The notes under the pieces: generated by a model
Database searches by the model: none
Seen by the model: only the letters and a program-made list of their open reading frames with translations
What the model was told of the DNA's origin: nothing
Virus record (IMG/VR): IMGVR_UViG_3300025771_000209
Coordinates: 1 to 22,708 of that record
Strand: one strand, 5' to 3'
Origin: a virus
Length of the DNA stretch: 22,708 nt
Shown here: positions 503-5,787 of the stretch, one piece after another
Position numbering within the stretch: the stretch's first letter is position 1
How the letters are laid out: every line of letters starts with the position of its first letter
Made by a program: the position numbers and the translations under genes

Positions 503-2112
503 TGGACTCTAAATTCCTACACCACGAGGAGTGTCCCAAGTGTGGCAGTAGGAACAACGTGGCGGTCTACTCTAACGGTGGTCGCCACTGTTTTTCTGCC
601 GACTGTGACTATCACGTAAACGGTGAAACAGGAGAGGAAACACAGGTGTCAACACCTAGTAACCTGAACATGGGTGGTGTCGTTGCTGGCATACCAGAGC
701 GTCGTTTGTCTGCCAAGACCGTAGGTAAGTATCAGGTCACGGTGGAGTACGACGCTAACGGTAAGATAGCCCGGCACTTCTACCCGTACTACGATGTAGA
801 CACAGGTGAGTTAGTTGCTGCCAAGTCTCGCATCGTCAAGACCAAAGACTTCCTGTCGTCAGGCTCAATGTCTAACGTAGGTCTGTTTGGTCAGAAGCAG
901 TGCCGTGGCAAAGGGAAGTACGTCACGATCACTGAGGGCGAACTGGACGCCATGTCAGTGTACGAAATGTTCGGACACAAGTACGATGTGGTATCACTGA
1001 GGTCTGGTGCGTCTAGCGCATCAAAAGAGATCAAGGCACAGCTAGAGTGGCTTGAGGGTTACGATAACGTGGTCGTTTGTTTTGACCAAGACAAAGCAGG
1101 AGAACTAGCAGTAGAGCAGATCAAGGATCTGTTTAGTCCCAACAAGCTGAAGATATGCAGTCTGCCTCTGAAGGACGCCAGTGAAATGCTCATGGCTAAC
1201 AGGGTGCAGGAGTTTACACAGGCGTGGTGGGACGCAAAGGTGTACAGACCGGACGGTATCATTGCTGGTGCTGACACATGGGAGGCGCTGGTAAACAAGC
1301 GTCAGGTACAGAGCATACCTTATCCGTGGGACGGACTCAATGAACTCACCAGAGGACACAGACCCTACGAACTGGTCACTATCACCAGCGGTTCTGGTAT
1401 GGGAAAGTCCCAGTTTATCAGAGAGCTTGAGTACGATTTGCTCCACAGAACCGACGCCAATATCGGTGTACTTGCACTCGAGGAAGATGTCGCAACGACA
1501 GCTCTGGGAATTATGTCGGTGGCGTCATCTAGGCGGCTACACTTGGAGGAAGATACGCCTATTGATGAGCTTAGACCTCACTGGGAAGCAACGATGGGTT
1601 CTGGACGTTATTACCTGTTTGACCACTGGGGATCAACGTCTGCCGATGAGCTTCTTTCAAGAGTACGGCACATGGCAAAAGCCTGTGACTGTCGATACAT
1701 CATCCTCGACCACCTGTCCATCGTGGTTTCTTCTCAAGAGAACGGGGACGAACGGAAGGCTATAGACGAAATTATGACAAAGCTACGCACACTGGTGGCA
1801 GAGACAGGAATCACACTGTTCCTCGTGTCGCACCTGAAGCGTACCTCTGGCACAGCACACGAGGACGGAGGCCGCATAAGCCTACAGGATCTCAGGGGAT
1901 CTCAGTCTATCGCACAGCTATCAGATATTGTCATAGGCATGGAGCGTAACCAGCAACACGAGGACGAGGACACTAGGAACACAACGTGTGTACGCATACT
2001 CAAGAACCGCTACGCTGGAGAAACTGGACCCGCTTGCTGGCTACGGTACGACAAGTTTACCGGACGTATCCACGAGTGTGCCAACCCTAATCCACCGGAG
2101 ACTGAGTTTTGA
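502..2112 (+). CDS. Bifunctional DNA primase-helicase (T7 gp4-like)
   Basis: At 536 aa it is close to T7 gp4 (566 aa). It would make RNA primers and unwind DNA as a hexamer. In order it shows an N-terminal zinc site (Cys11, Cys14, Cys30, Cys35), a TOPRIM primase core with an E-G-x-x-D motif near residue 145 and a D-x-D motif near 194, then a RecA-like helicase. The helicase has Walker A GSGMGKS near 297-303, Walker B IILD near 400 followed by HLS, an SHLKR motif near 443 and a GSQSIAQLSD motif near 466. The start ATG overlaps the SSB stop (TGATG), and its TGA overlaps the polymerase TTG. All catalytic motifs appear intact, so full primase and helicase activity is expected. It would load the neighbouring polymerase and contact the SSB tail. 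Confidence 0.96.
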   Translation: MDSKFLHHEECPKCGSRNNVAVYSNGGRHCFSADCDYHVNGETGEETQVSTPSNLNMGGVVAGIPERRLSAKTVGKYQVTVEYDANGKIARHFYPYYDVDTGELVAAKSRIVKTKDFLSSGSMSNVGLFGQKQCRGKGKYVTITEGELDAMSVYEMFGHKYDVVSLRSGASSASKEIKAQLEWLEGYDNVVVCFDQDKAGELAVEQIKDLFSPNKLKICSLPLKDASEMLMANRVQEFTQAWWDAKVYRPDGIIAGADTWEALVNKRQVQSIPYPWDGLNELTRGHRPYELVTITSGSGMGKSQFIRELEYDLLHRTDANIGVLALEEDVATTALGIMSVASSRRLHLEEDTPIDELRPHWEATMGSGRYYLFDHWGSTSADELLSRVRHMAKACDCRYIILDHLSIVVSSQENGDERKAIDEIMTKLRTLVAETGITLFLVSHLKRTSGTAHEDGGRISLQDLRGSQSIAQLSDIVIGMERNQQHEDEDTRNTTCVRILKNRYAGETGPACWLRYDKFTGRIHECANPNPPETEF

Positions 2113-3755
2113 ACATCGTCTTTTGTGACATTGAAACTGACGGTTTAGACGCCACTACCATCTGGTGTGCTGTCTGCCGACACAACTTAGAGAGCGAGGT
2201 GATTTGTAATGAAGCAGATTTCAAGGCGTATGTATCGCGTAAAGCGCCAGCTAAATTCATATTCCACAACGGAATTGGCTTTGATGTTCCTGTGGTCGAG
2301 CGTATTTGGAATTTTACTTTTGACAGGAGCATGGTCGCTGACACTCTAGTAATGTCTAGGCTGGCTGACCCAAGCAGGTCTGGTGGACACTCGTTGCGTA
2401 ACTGGGGAAACATCCTAGGGTTTGCAAAGGGTGACCACGAGGATTGGTCGCAGCTTACACCACAGATGATTGACTACTGCATACGTGACGTAGAGTTGAC
2501 TGAGGCGGTGTACAACAGGCTACGGGTAGAGCTAGAGGGTTTCTCACAGGCCAGCATTGACCTAGAACACAGTGTGCAGTGGATCATACAGGAACAGGAG
2601 CGTAACGGGTGGCTACTGGATCAACGTCTGTGCCACACGCTGTGCGCTAGGTTCAAGGAGCGTATGTATGAAATCGAGGAAGAACTCCAGAGGGTGTTCC
2701 CGCCGATTGTTGAAGAAAGGATCTCTGAGAAAACAGGCAAGCGCCTTAAGGATAAAGTTACGGTATTCAATCCCGGCTCAAGGCAACAGGTGGCAGAAAG
2801 ACTTGAAGCTAAGGGTGCTGTTTGGTCGGAACTCACACCGTCTGGTAGGCCACAGGTGGACGAGAGGACGCTTGAGGAAAACAAACATATACCGGAAGCT
2901 GTTCTCGTCCTTGAGTACCTTCTTCTGCAGAAGCGTTACGCACAAGTATCCTCTTGGATAGAACACGTTGAGGACGACGGTAGGGTACACGGGAGAGTTA
3001 CAACCAACGGTGCTATCACAGGACGGATGACACACCAGAACCCTAACATGGCACAGGTTCCGTCAGTCAACTCTCAGTTTGGCAAGGAGTGTCGTGACTG
3101 TTGGATTGTACCAGAGGGACGCAAGCTGGTGGGAGTAGACGCCAGTGGACTAGAGCTACGTATGTTAGCTCACTACATGGGCGACGAGGAGTTTACAAAT
3201 GTCTTGCTTAGAGACGATATTCACACCAGAAATCAAACTGCTGCTGGACTTGCAACAAGACCTCAGGCAAAGACTTTCATCTACGCTTTCCTCTACGGAG
3301 CAGGAGACGCAAAGATTGGAAGTATCATCGGAGGAACTGCAAGAGATGGGTATGCGCTTAGGACACGCTTTCTACGAAATACACCTTCTCTTGAAACTCT
3401 ACGAGAGCGAGTTGGACAGGCGTCTAGGAAGGGTTACCTCACTGGCCTCGACGGACGAAAGCTCTGGGTCAGGTCAGAACATAGTGCACTGAACACGTTA
3501 CTACAGGCGGCTGGTGCTATCATTATGAAGAAGGCTCTGGTGCTTCTGGATGACTACGCTACTCAGCACAACATTGACTACAAGTTTATAGGGAACGTAC
3601 ATGACGAGATACAATCGGAGGTGGCTTCAGAACAAGCAGAGAAGTTCGGCTGGCTCGCAGTCGAGTGCATCAAGGCGGCTGGCATTTCTTTTGAACTCAG
3701 ATGTCCACTCGACGGAGAGTACAAGGTCGGACAAACATGGTCGGAGACACACTAA
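2109..3755 (+). CDS. Family A DNA polymerase with 3'-5' proofreading (T7 gp5-like)
   Basis: This is a 548-aa replicative polymerase. The N-terminal DEDDy exonuclease has D7-x-E9 (FCDIETDG), HNGIGFD near 53-60 and Y-x-x-x-D near 122-127. The polymerase domain has motif A VDASGLELR near 344, motif B RPQAKTFIYAFLYGAG near 384-399 and motif C VHDEIQ near 497. The C-terminus ends in His, as in T7. The residue equivalent to E. coli Pol I 762 is Tyr, the T7 state. It is about 150 aa shorter than T7 gp5. Much of the gap lies just before the FNPGSR motif, where T7 carries its thioredoxin-binding loop. Start is TTG at 2109: exonuclease motif I begins at residue 5, no ATG lies upstream, and GGAG (2097-2100) sits 8 bases before it. 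Its stop overlaps the next ATG (TAATG). Confidence 0.95.
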   Translation: MNIVFCDIETDGLDATTIWCAVCRHNLESEVICNEADFKAYVSRKAPAKFIFHNGIGFDVPVVERIWNFTFDRSMVADTLVMSRLADPSRSGGHSLRNWGNILGFAKGDHEDWSQLTPQMIDYCIRDVELTEAVYNRLRVELEGFSQASIDLEHSVQWIIQEQERNGWLLDQRLCHTLCARFKERMYEIEEELQRVFPPIVEERISEKTGKRLKDKVTVFNPGSRQQVAERLEAKGAVWSELTPSGRPQVDERTLEENKHIPEAVLVLEYLLLQKRYAQVSSWIEHVEDDGRVHGRVTTNGAITGRMTHQNPNMAQVPSVNSQFGKECRDCWIVPEGRKLVGVDASGLELRMLAHYMGDEEFTNVLLRDDIHTRNQTAAGLATRPQAKTFIYAFLYGAGDAKIGSIIGGTARDGYALRTRFLRNTPSLETLRERVGQASRKGYLTGLDGRKLWVRSEHSALNTLLQAAGAIIMKKALVLLDDYATQHNIDYKFIGNVHDEIQSEVASEQAEKFGWLAVECIKAAGISFELRCPLDGEYKVGQTWSETH

Positions 3756-4054
3756 TGAAACTAATGGATCCAAGTAGAGTAGGTGATATAGCAGAGTTTT
3801 ATGCGGTTACATGGTTGTGGGATAACGGTTACGAAGTTTACCTCAATCCCGGTTCAACCGGATTTGTAGACATGGTGGCTTGGAAAGACGGAGAGTGTAC
3901 TTTAGTTGACGTAAAAACACTACACAATAAGTACAAAACGGGACAGATAAAGCAAACTAGGACAGAACAACAAGTTAAATACAACGTAAGATTTCTAGGT
4001 TTTCACCCTAAGACTCGCAAACTACGATGGATAAACCACAAGGACACAGCATGA
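3755..4054 (+). CDS. Small PD-(D/E)XK endonuclease, Holliday-junction-resolvase-like
   Basis: This 99-aa protein has the compact PD-(D/E)XK nuclease signature: a helix with Glu14 (GDIAEF), then Asp39 (GFVDMV) and Asp52-x-Lys54 (VDVKT). The order and spacing match archaeal Hjc-type resolvases and related small phage or intron nucleases. The likely role is cutting branched or damaged DNA during replication or recombination, but the substrate cannot be read from sequence. ATG 3755 overlaps the polymerase stop (TAATG) with GGAG 8 bases upstream. An in-frame ATG at 3737 lies inside the polymerase gene and lacks this spacing. Its base composition is AT-richer than its neighbours (about 40% GC by hand count), which hints at separate acquisition. 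Confidence 0.75.
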   Translation: MKLMDPSRVGDIAEFYAVTWLWDNGYEVYLNPGSTGFVDMVAWKDGECTLVDVKTLHNKYKTGQIKQTRTEQQVKYNVRFLGFHPKTRKLRWINHKDTA

Positions 4055-4905
4055 ACAAACTTTACTCACTGGTAGACGATATCTACAAGGTGGTTTCTGA
4101 GAAGCAGCCAGCAGAAGGTGTTGACCTGATAGACGAGATAGACCGCTTTGGTGAGAACTGCAAGCGCCTCATGTCTAACCTGTTCACAGAGAAGCGTGAC
4201 GGACGTAAGCTGCGTATGTCTAACATCGGGCGTGATGATCGTTACCTGTGGAACGTGGTCAACAACCCAGACGTACAAGAGGAGATGACACCTAACACAT
4301 ACGTCAAGTTTATGTACGGGCATCTGATCGAAGAGATGCTGTTGTTTCTCACCAGACTATCAGGACACGAGGTGACAGATGAACAGAAGCAGTGTGAAGT
4401 TGCGGGTGTTACAGGGTCTATGGACTGCAAAATTGACGGTGTTGTCACTGATGTTAAGAGTGTCTCCACTTTTGGGTTTAAGAAATTCAAGGACGGAAGT
4501 CTGGCTTTTGATGATCCGTTTGGATACGTTGCTCAAATTAAAGGATACGCACATTCAGAAGGAGAAACTAAGTTCGGCTGGTTAGCGATGGACAAACAGA
4601 ACGGACACCTGACGTACCTCATGTACGACTCTGAGGACACACAGGCTCCCGTGTACGACAAGATCTCTTACGACATAGAGGAGCACATCAACCGCGTAAA
4701 AAAGCTCGTAGAGCAACCGGAAGCACCAGAGCACTGCCACGAAACCGTACCAGATGGCAAAAGTGGAAATCAAAAGCTCGCAGTCGGTTGTTCCTATTGT
4801 CCCTACAAGCATACCTGCTGGCCCGGACTAAGAACATTCATCTACTCAAGTGGTCCAAGGTACTTAACAGAGGTGGTCAATGAGCCGAAGGTCGCGGAAG
4901 TCTAA
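4051..4905 (+). CDS. Cas4/RecB-family PD-(D/E)XK nuclease with probable 4Fe-4S cluster
   Basis: This 284-aa protein shows the RecB/Cas4 nuclease layout: GHLIEE near residue 90, Asp125 (GSMD), Asp134-x-Lys136 (TDVKS) and the Q-x-x-x-Y motif Gln162/Tyr166 (AQIKGY). The C-terminus has C247-x2-C250-x5-C256, the spacing of the three C-terminal cysteines that bind a 4Fe-4S cluster in Cas4 and AddB. The fourth ligand could be Cys37 or Cys229. It occupies roughly the place of the T7 gp6 exonuclease, so a role in host DNA breakdown, primer removal or recombination end-resection is likely. Start ATG 4051 overlaps the previous stop (ATGA). An earlier in-frame ATG at 4027 lies inside the previous gene. 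There are no CRISPR repeats or other cas genes nearby, so a CRISPR role is not supported. Confidence 0.85.
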   Translation: MNKLYSLVDDIYKVVSEKQPAEGVDLIDEIDRFGENCKRLMSNLFTEKRDGRKLRMSNIGRDDRYLWNVVNNPDVQEEMTPNTYVKFMYGHLIEEMLLFLTRLSGHEVTDEQKQCEVAGVTGSMDCKIDGVVTDVKSVSTFGFKKFKDGSLAFDDPFGYVAQIKGYAHSEGETKFGWLAMDKQNGHLTYLMYDSEDTQAPVYDKISYDIEEHINRVKKLVEQPEAPEHCHETVPDGKSGNQKLAVGCSYCPYKHTCWPGLRTFIYSSGPRYLTEVVNEPKVAEV

Positions 4906-5290
4906 GCTAGGAAACTTTAGGTCGGAGTTTGAAAAAGATGTCGCAAAGCAGTTACAACCATTTGGCTTTAGCTACGAGCCGTTCCAAGTGGACTACATCA
5001 TCCCACGGAAGTACACCCCAGACTTTGTGTACGAAAGAGGAGACAGAGCTTACCTCATTGAGTGCAAAGGATACTTTAGAGCAGGAGATACGCAAAAGTA
5101 TAAAGCGATCTCTAGGTCATTACCGTGGACGCAAGAACTCATCTTTGTGCTGATGAAGCCTAACCAGAAAGTGAGTAAAAGTACCAAACTTACTATGGCT
5201 GAATGGTGTGACAAACACGAGATTTTATGGTATAATATAGATACACTTAAGGAGTTAGTCGATTATGTCTCTGACACTAGAAGAAATTAA
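4880..5290 (+). CDS. T7 endonuclease I homologue (Holliday junction resolvase)
   Basis: This 136-aa protein is close in size to T7 gp3 (149 aa). It aligns by eye through FRSxxE, YxIPxxYTPDF and the IECKG core. Catalytic residues of T7 endonuclease I (Glu20, Asp55, Glu65, Lys67) correspond to Glu18, Asp48, Glu61 and Lys63. The N-terminal basic segment (RRSRKSK) also resembles T7. It should cut four-way junctions and branched DNA, helping to resolve concatemers before packaging and to degrade host DNA. It overlaps the upstream nuclease by 26 bp. Its 3' part contains a strong internal promoter (5208-5236), and the next gene starts inside its last codons. Confidence 0.93.
   Translation: MSRRSRKSKLGNFRSEFEKDVAKQLQPFGFSYEPFQVDYIIPRKYTPDFVYERGDRAYLIECKGYFRAGDTQKYKAISRSLPWTQELIFVLMKPNQKVSKSTKLTMAEWCDKHEILWYNIDTLKELVDYVSDTRRN
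5208..5236 (+). promoter_or_regulatory. extended -10 sigma70-like promoter inside the endonuclease I gene
   Basis: GTGACA (5208-5213) matches the -35 consensus at 5 of 6 bases. A perfect TATAAT (5231-5236) follows after exactly 17 bp, and the TGG just before it (5228-5230) gives an extended -10 (TGn). Start is predicted near 5243, about 22 bases before the next start codon. It would raise expression of the 58-aa protein, the DUF3310 protein, the 86-aa protein and the RNR independently of the upstream nucleases. Confidence 0.75.
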
Positions 5291-5441
5291 GGAGCGTCTG
5301 TTGCGGTTATACGACCCTGATGATCTTCTGGAAGCACTACAGATTTCTGCTGAAGATATACTGGACAGATTTGAGGACAAACTGATACGCAAGCTAGACG
5401 AGTTTCAGGAGGAGCTAGAGGAAGAAGCGTATGCGGAATGA
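5265..5441 (+). CDS. Small acidic protein, 58 aa, unknown function
   Basis: This short gene begins at ATG 5265 with a clear AAGGAG (5249-5254) 10 bases upstream and the extended -10 promoter directly ahead. The product is strongly acidic and predicted helical: it reads EEIKERLLRLYDPDDLLEAL early and ends in a run of Glu. That pattern (YDPDDLLEAL...EDILDRFED) occurs in other marine phage small proteins of unknown function, from memory. No catalytic motif or membrane segment is seen. The last 11 bases overlap the DUF3310 gene. It could be a small regulatory or adaptor protein, but this is not shown by the sequence. Confidence 0.75.
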   Translation: MSLTLEEIKERLLRLYDPDDLLEALQISAEDILDRFEDKLIRKLDEFQEELEEEAYAE

Positions 5442-5787
5442 GTGGACAACTTATTTGGATAAACACGGTGAGGTTATGACTTACGGATCTATAGACGAAG
5501 CTAAACCAGAGGATTGGGACAGGGTGAACAAGAGTAAGACGTTTACAGGCAAATTGTTTCACCCCAGCGACAAACACAACCCTGTGACACAACCAGATCA
5601 CTACAACAAGGGAGCCATCGAAGCCATCGAAGCAATCAAGGCGTCCATGCACCCACAAGAATACAAAGGATATCTCAAGGGAAACTGCCTGAAATACTTG
5701 TGGAGGTACGAATACAAGAACGGCGTAGAGGATCTCAGGAAGGCCAAGGTGTACCTAGAGTGGTTAATCAAGGAGGTCGCCACATGA
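5431..5787 (+). CDS. DUF3310 protein (T7 gp1.7-like; possible nucleotide kinase)
   Basis: This 118-aa protein ends in a DUF3310 domain: PDHYN near residue 55, then IEAIEAI, GNCLKYLWRY near 88 and a final helix EDLRKAKVYLEWL. T7 gp1.7, which phosphorylates dTMP/dGMP-type nucleotides, carries a related domain. A role in dNTP supply is therefore plausible and fits its place two genes before the RNR. The first 50 residues are polar and not recognised. Start ATG 5431 overlaps the preceding gene by 11 bp with purine-rich AGGAGGAG/GAGG upstream. It overlaps the next gene by ATGA. Confidence 0.85.
   Translation: MRNEWTTYLDKHGEVMTYGSIDEAKPEDWDRVNKSKTFTGKLFHPSDKHNPVTQPDHYNKGAIEAIEAIKASMHPQEYKGYLKGNCLKYLWRYEYKNGVEDLRKAKVYLEWLIKEVAT

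Follow-up and report, generated by a model that had tools for sequence, protein, structure and literature searches.

Unrelated nucleases alternate in a single polA-cas4 slot of marine phages, a candidate landing site for homing-type endonucleases

Free-standing homing endonuclease genes reportedly lie near essential phage genes in T4. Homing endonucleases span several endonuclease superfamilies, and the Endo VII superfamily contains a non-resolvase "endonuclease clade" whose members carry the motif at the C-terminal end and occur in phages encoding endonuclease I (endo I) (PMC6083498). Domain shuffling has been reported for T5orf172 homing endonucleases, and hotspots of homing endonuclease genes (HEGs) near essential genes are published, including the tape measure introns of ICP1, where the HEGs differ while the flanks hardly change (PMC10448857); an endonuclease that handicaps a co-infecting phage has also been described (PMC11620839). 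The locus analyzed here belongs to a 22.7-kb virus record of IMG/VR (IMGVR_UViG_3300025771_000209, positions 1 to 22,708, referred to as the window), in which three open reading frames (ORFs) on the plus strand follow the DNA polymerase gene polA, each overlapping its neighbours: an Hjc-like PD-(D/E)XK gene (3755-4054), a Cas4/RecB-like exonuclease gene (4027-4905, with a conserved start at 4051), and a T7 endonuclease I homologue (4880-5290). The place of the first gene, between polA and cas4, is a slot in which unrelated nucleases replace one another within near-identical flanks. This swapping is observed directly, and with somewhat better than even confidence we suggest from the sequences that the slot is a landing site for homing-type free-standing endonucleases beside the Cas4-endo I pair.

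Slot occupancy was scored in three scans of 80 loci each, the query always being a gene other than the slot gene (unreadable loci, 3, 8, and 2 for the Cas4, endo I, and polA queries; contigs recur between the scans, and L160 and L206 were scored as GIY-YIG by hand from their translations). With Cas4 as the query, the 77 readable slots contained GIY-YIG genes in 34 cases, Hjc-like genes in 23, Endo VII-type genes in 19, and an HNH gene in one. The endo I query gave 42, 22, and 8 genes of the first three types in 72 readable slots, and the polA query 37, 27, and 14 in 78. Slots without the Hjc-like gene thus number 54 of 77, 50 of 72, and 51 of 78, respectively. Pfam searches with slot representatives identified Endonuclease_7 (1.5e-14 and 4e-16), the GIY-YIG domains T5orf172/MUG113 (about 1e-12), and a weak HNH match (0.015). 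Different slot genes are found in relatives with 87-100% identical Cas4-like proteins. Among 116 loci of the window clade, defined by a Cas4 profile score of 470 or more and including the window's own copy and some loci fetched by a slot-gene query, the slot DNA is common to 23% of the loci spanning it, compared with 100% for polA, cas4, endo I, primase, and ribonucleotide reductase, and 85% for DUF3310.

These counts rule out a stable three-nuclease module. The original prediction had read the three genes as dividing labour within one pathway, and this is now very improbable: all three are intact, with their catalytic residues kept, and the Cas4-like and endo I genes are linked in the window clade, but the Hjc-like gene is absent from most close relatives, an absence that the original prediction had itself named as a refutation, and unrelated enzymes take its place in near-identical genomes.

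The nearest relative of the window, L166, carries a GIY-YIG gene in place of the Hjc-like one, and the two slot genes are wholly different, yet identity reaches 99.62% in the 3161 nt to the left of the slot and 99.72% in the 3565 nt to its right. Six of the 12 differences in the left flank fall in the last 31 nt of polA, the next one being 558 nt away, and 8 of the 10 differences in the right flank lie in its first 400 nt. The left junction, composed of the polA 3' tail and the overlapping start codon, was assigned to positions 3722..3757, where these differences crowd near the polA stop; the right junction is the ATGA at 4051..4054, with the slot-gene stop placed over the cas4 start, and the alignment with L166 restarts at 4051. 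Similarly, in eight swapped sister pairs, chosen from sister rows of the Cas4 tree, the last 50 nt of polA contain 30 differences in 400 nt, whereas the adjoining 350 nt contain 67 in about 2,760 nt; for the four closest pairs the corresponding values are 13 in 200 nt and 6 in 1,400 nt. On the Cas4 DNA tree of 118 loci, the four slot states require at least 25 changes, a parsimony count on one gene whose tree may be disturbed by recombination; the mean for shuffled states is 50, so the states are also clustered. Strongly supported branches force 15 changes for GIY, 14 for Hjc, and 10 for Endo VII, and the row nearest to the window is a GIY carrier. The window-clade loci are assembled environmental contigs, in which metagenomic chimeras might put different genes into a conserved backbone. 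We regard such an artefact as extremely improbable, since many contigs show these allele types repeatedly at identical junctions, their frames overlapping both neighbours, and multi-gene variants are orderly.

The two genes that follow the slot are a fixed pair in the window clade, looser further out, and belong to the replication/recombination module. Endo I adjoins the Cas4-like gene in 115 of 115 uncut window-clade loci and in 28 of 28 in the next band of Cas4 scores (in these bands some loci were retrieved by slot-gene queries, and the loci are not independent). Among ten named Cas4-bearing phages, endo I directly follows the Cas4-like gene in seven (SIO1, P12053L, ICBM1, phiM6, CRP-4, HMO-2011, and CRP-13); HTVC115P has both genes with two ORFs between them, and no endo I was seen in the inspected stretches of T5S1 and HTVC104P. 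In the pelagiphage-like band, endo I lies within 1.5 kb in 37 of 58 uncut loci, and none was found in at least 1.5 kb after cas4 in 21 (for example, L279, L286, and L309). The consistent co-occurrence that the original prediction would take as support for functional linkage is seen for the Cas4-like gene and endo I in the window clade, but not for the Hjc-like member.

The family labels first given to the three products fared unequally as well. That of endo I is clear (Pfam PF05367, Phage_endo_I, 2e-17, 63.6 bits against a curated cut-off of 29.1; PHROG 945, 7e-33); of its catalytic residues, E18 is kept in 195 of 196 relatives and D48, E61, and K63 in all 196. The protein thus resembles T7 gp3 endonuclease I in both family and catalytic residues, and no notable difference between them was found. 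The Cas4/RecB label holds by PHROG (PHROG 1990, 2e-38), not by Pfam. The RecB motifs are named GxxD, DxK, and QxxxY, and the corresponding residues D133, D142, K144, Q170, and Y174 are kept in 293 of 293 sequences of the family alignment. In the same alignment four cysteines (C237, C255, C258, and C264) are near-invariant, and all of them are C-terminal. Canonical Cas4 has one N-terminal and three C-terminal Fe-S cysteines. Since this arrangement is not observed, we call the protein Cas4-like and not Cas4, and the Fe-S cluster of the original label is putative, though plausible. Phage Cas4-like exonucleases of PHROG 1990, such as SIO1 NP_064755.1, share with it the RecB motifs and the four cysteines, as well as the place before endo I in SIO1, P12053L, and HMO-2011. 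In some relatives (L044:3562-4362, L062:4480-5277, and L518:5266-6084), a gene for a different protein of about 266 amino acids, putatively another RecB-family exonuclease, occupies the place of the Cas4-like gene between hjc and endo I. An S-adenosylmethionine decarboxylase is annotated directly after the Cas4-like gene in HTVC115P (4862-5260) and HTVC104P (4863-5240).

The Hjc label, by comparison, is weak by sequence. The best Pfam matches of the 99-amino-acid slot product, Hjc (PF01870; 6e-4, 20.1 bits against a curated cut-off of 21.1) and PDDEXK_5 (3e-4), are both below the cut-off, and its best PHROG, 5018 (6e-12), is of unknown function. A profile of the family matches archaeal Hjc structures in PDB at 2.4e-5 to 1.4e-3, and the catalytic residues E14, D39, D52, and K54 are present in 97 of 97 relatives. 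A fold search with the AlphaFold model (pLDDT 85) gave the homing endonuclease I-Ssp6803I (2OST; Z 9.7, 94 residues, 2.8 A), archaeal Hjc (1GEF; Z 9.6, 88 residues, 2.3 A), and a SPARDA chain (Z 9.5), and also placed tRNA-splicing endonucleases nearby. The Hjc-like allele shares the minimal PD-(D/E)XK fold with I-Ssp6803I and with archaeal Hjc (1GEF, 2WCW), and because of these ties the fold does not discriminate Hjc from homing enzymes; by sequence, the match to 2OST is not significant (E 0.083). The Hjc-like allele differs from these proteins in its size of 99 amino acids, and from archaeal Hjc in DxK instead of ExK and in the Pfam score below cut-off.

A tblastn search (1e-2) of 50,697 phage records did not detect any Hjc-like gene, nor was one seen in the inspected stretches of the ten named Cas4-bearing phages. 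The gene is common in environmental contigs, with 532 matching stretches in IMG/VR, of which the best 80 were taken, and the GTDB genomes contain three loci, all in a phage-like polA-hjc-exonuclease-endo I order, one of them with a non-Cas4 exonuclease. A relocation of Hjc to another site when the slot holds a different gene was considered and rejected, as no second Hjc was seen in nine records with a non-Hjc slot (all three controls were found; the fragments limit the reach of this search); a further set gave none in ten records, seven of which overlap the nine. The Hjc genes have also been exchanged between backbones, since their divergence is out of step with that of the flanks. Among 27 inner-clade Hjc carriers, divergence at four-fold sites is 0.59 for hjc, compared with 0.33 for cas4, 0.24 for endo I, and 0.27 for polA (276 non-independent pairs with all genes readable, and few sites per hjc pair), and some pairs show the opposite, near-identical hjc in diverged flanks, such as the window versus L171, with 0.08 in hjc and 0.14-0.29 in the flanking genes.

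In the GIY-YIG alleles a 91-amino-acid catalytic domain is constant (52 of 53 parsed) and is preceded by 41 distinct N-terminal parts of clearly different kinds, several of them zinc-ribbon-like; the number refers to strings and not to families, as two of the 55 carriers could not be parsed, L192 is truncated, and an internal ATG cut short six of the N-terminal strings. Some of these parts (in L206 and related loci) are matched by the Endo VII slot profile, which suggests a zinc-ribbon module common to both nuclease superfamilies. In L300, a single slot is shared by a tandem of two different GIY-YIG genes. In the Endo VII alleles, PF02945 lies at the C-terminus (residues 65-134 and 67-136 of 139 in two representatives), and their carrier phages encode endo I. 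They have both features given for the DHHRN (F-CphI-like) clade in PMC6083498, an assignment made by published criteria.

Several lines of evidence point to homing-type enzymes. Superfamilies that include homing endonucleases meet at one junction beside polA, the GIY alleles combine a constant catalytic domain with varied N-terminal parts as T5orf172 homing genes do, and the Endo VII alleles have the C-terminal motif in phages encoding endo I. The Hjc-like fold matches I-Ssp6803I as well as Hjc, although it is not decisive, and the exchange tracts are short on the polA side. In the mechanism we propose, the enzyme of one phage would cut, during co-infection, the DNA of a rival at or near the polA-cas4 locus, and repair from the cutter's genome would copy the slot gene with a short flank, displacing the rival allele; the copied flank would comprise about 30-50 nt of polA and, on the cas4 side, possibly a few hundred nt. 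Among the occupants of the slot, the Hjc-like gene was probably there first, as it is found across divergent relatives and next to cas4 in the two-gene slots examined; it may have begun as a junction resolvase and may still serve so in some lineages.

Not all of the properties expected of a homing slot were observed. The locus has variable occupants between near-identical flanks, but empty alleles in close relatives and signs of decay were not found. Among the readable window-clade loci none of 77, 72, and 78 slots is empty, although uncolonised alleles would be expected. A profile match over the full length was obtained for 222 of 224 slot genes of the Hjc, GIY, and Endo VII types (from 285 unique slots, some of them retrieved by slot-gene queries, and not independent). 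The median ratio of nonsynonymous to synonymous divergence (dN/dS) is 0.071 for hjc (only 34 pairs), 0.105 for the GIY domain, and 0.063 for Endo VII, compared with 0.094 for cas4 and 0.162 for endo I (at most 90 sequences each). As judged from these sequences, the slot genes are intact and under purifying selection, that is, working genes, whoever benefits, and the three overlapping nuclease ORFs of the original prediction are real, with intact catalytic residues. Such an absence of decay, with dN/dS of 0.06-0.11 and a slot that is never empty in the window clade, also fits a needed function.

Other observations weigh against homing as well. Relatives of the GIY alleles (best 80 of 204) adjoin cas4 in 80 of 80 loci instead of being spread over genomes, and relatives of the Endo VII alleles are in the slot region in 43 of 44 loci with a readable match, with one exception elsewhere; both searches reach close relatives only. 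No flank sequence linked to the slot type, and so no type-specific target or immunity mark, was detected beyond about 90 nt; the divergence ratio, same-type versus different-type, is 0.97-1.13, apart from three 30-nt windows at the start of cas4 (1.20, 1.08, and 1.20). Of the 102 inner-clade loci in this test, at most 70 had complete flanks, and 10 had been dropped with an unparsed cas4 start.

These observations are compatible with a needed swappable nuclease, with Hjc acting in some lineages as a true resolvase, or with ordinary recombination moving a competition gene. According to the first of these explanations, the slot supplies one needed structure-selective nuclease for junction or flap cutting, and any family will do. 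Both the Hjc and the Endo VII families include true junction resolvases. For Endo VII this is also stated in PMC6083498. A slot never empty in the window clade, purifying selection like that on core genes, and the lack of a second Hjc in the nine records without one in the slot (with all three controls recovered) agree with such a role. We nevertheless consider it distinctly unlikely, because endo I is already adjacent in all 115 uncut window-clade loci, the GIY alleles shuffle recognition-like modules, and the Endo VII alleles resemble a non-resolvase clade.

The more distant clades bear on the same question. A pelagiphage-like Cas4 query (L060) retrieved 80 loci, which yielded 62 unique readable slots (10 duplicates, 8 unreadable). 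Hjc occurs alone in 20 of these and together with one or two polA-side genes in 21, the additional genes being nuclease-like by motif in 17 cases and of unknown kind in four; the slots without Hjc contain GIY genes (nine, and one double), HNH-like genes of two kinds (seven and three), and one Endo VII gene, all labels in this set being motif-based. Pfam confirmed HNH_3 in two representatives of one HNH kind (5e-7 and 3e-7) and T5orf172 in two; the second HNH-like kind and two kinds resembling PD-(D/E)XK enzymes have no Pfam nuclease match and are putatively assigned by motif. Since the polA-side genes coexist with Hjc, they are not simply Hjc substitutes, which counts further against an interchangeable resolvase. 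A repeat of the polA tail precedes hjc in the two-gene slots, with an exact match of 12-14 nt at 9 of 22 distinct junctions and a match of 9-11 nt at five. Repeats of 12 nt or more occurred in none of 1100 shuffles and none of 275 interior windows, and those of 9 nt or more in 4% of shuffles. This repeat speaks for the homing-type explanation, although part of it stems from the overlapping start codon.

In the HTVC115P-like clade, retrieved with the HTVC115P Cas4 query, the junction is empty in at least 60 of 74 readable loci, with polA overlapping cas4. The slot gene is thus dispensable at the scale of a clade, which is contrary to a needed resolvase; that this junction remains uninvaded is also a difficulty for homing. 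In pelagiphage-like loci, Hjc is carried by 18 of 21 loci without nearby endo I and by 23 of 37 with it, a trend only (Fisher p 0.08, for related loci partly fetched by Hjc). It favours the resolvase explanation over homing and hints at Hjc serving as a substitute resolvase in loci that lack endo I nearby. As endo I proved less than universal beyond the window clade, a little weight shifts from homing to the resolvase explanation.

A further explanation is competition without copying, in which the slot nucleases would attack co-infecting relatives or satellites elsewhere in their genomes, a rare-type advantage would keep the alleles, and ordinary recombination in the flanks would move them. 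It is consistent with several common alleles in near-identical flanks, with modular recognition-like domains, and with flanks that show no association with the slot type. Interference of an endonuclease with a co-infecting phage has been published (PMC11620839), and T5orf172-associated domains take part in phage-satellite conflict (PMC10448857). On the other side, no target is known, and homing would account equally well for the short exchange tracts and the position at the polA end; we rate this explanation as somewhat unlikely. Homing-type copying therefore ranks first, competition without copying second, and an interchangeable resolvase third, the first two overlapping in their sequence predictions, so that the probabilities given to them are not fully mutually exclusive. 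As a bolder and more tentative proposal, held with clearly less than even confidence, the slot might be, across a widespread group of marine phages, a permanently filled multi-allele weapons locus, where endonucleases of five types or more (PD-(D/E)XK enzymes, both Hjc-like and other, GIY-YIG, Endo VII-type, and two HNH kinds) copy over one another or kill co-infecting rivals, a former junction resolvase having been drawn in, and where rare types are favoured and no allele wins.

The gene layout of the window fits the cobavirus/HMO-2011/HTVC115P kind of marine phage. Its plus strand encodes SSB, a primase-helicase, PolA, the three nucleases, DUF3310, and ribonucleotide reductase. The polA gene (2109..3755; Pfam DNA_pol_A, 6e-49), whose last ~30-50 nt tend to move with the slot gene, ends with TAA at 3753-3755 and has one base in common with the ATG of the Hjc-like gene (3755..4054). 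The stop of the latter overlaps the conserved cas4 ATG, the start common to swapped relatives, by 4 nt, or by 28 nt if the first ATG of the open frame, at 4027, is taken; cas4 (4051..4905) and endo I (4880..5290) overlap by 26 nt. Within the module, only the slot varies more than the DUF3310 gene (5441-5787), which lies two ORFs downstream of endo I. At the polA end, an alternative oxidase gene (Pfam AOX, 4.7e-67), possibly an auxiliary metabolic gene, is inserted in L116 and L233, in L116 before an Endo VII-type slot gene. In L451 an ORF of 186 amino acids, possibly an oxygenase, lies between the Endo VII-type slot gene and cas4, and L452 has similar spacing.

Compared with the free-standing HEGs of the ICP1 type (PMC10448857), the slot likewise has small endonucleases of several families beside replication genes, T5orf172 domains with shuffled DNA-binding modules, and variable content in nearly unchanged flanks. 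In contrast to them, the window-clade slot lies outside any recognised intron, no search for introns having been made, and is filled in every readable locus, unrelated superfamilies alternate in it, its genes are hardly decayed, and homing is our inference. The Endo VII alleles are similar to F-CphI and other DHHRN homing endonucleases (PMC6083498) in the C-terminal motif and in a phage that encodes endo I. No account of a polA-cas4 slot appeared in the literature searched, which included PMC6775973, PMC9038755, and PMC9599517 by term and few subscription papers. HEG hotspots are known; a single, always filled slot shared by several superfamilies in near-identical genomes is new as far as the literature searched reaches.

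For the annotation of such phages, an Hjc-like gene does not imply a fixed recombination partner. The slot provides a natural allelic series, in which the same genome backbone carries unrelated nucleases in one place. With this series one can test whether a free-standing endonuclease repays its phage as a weapon against relatives in the same cell, and whether nucleases of the resolvase and homing types can substitute for each other.

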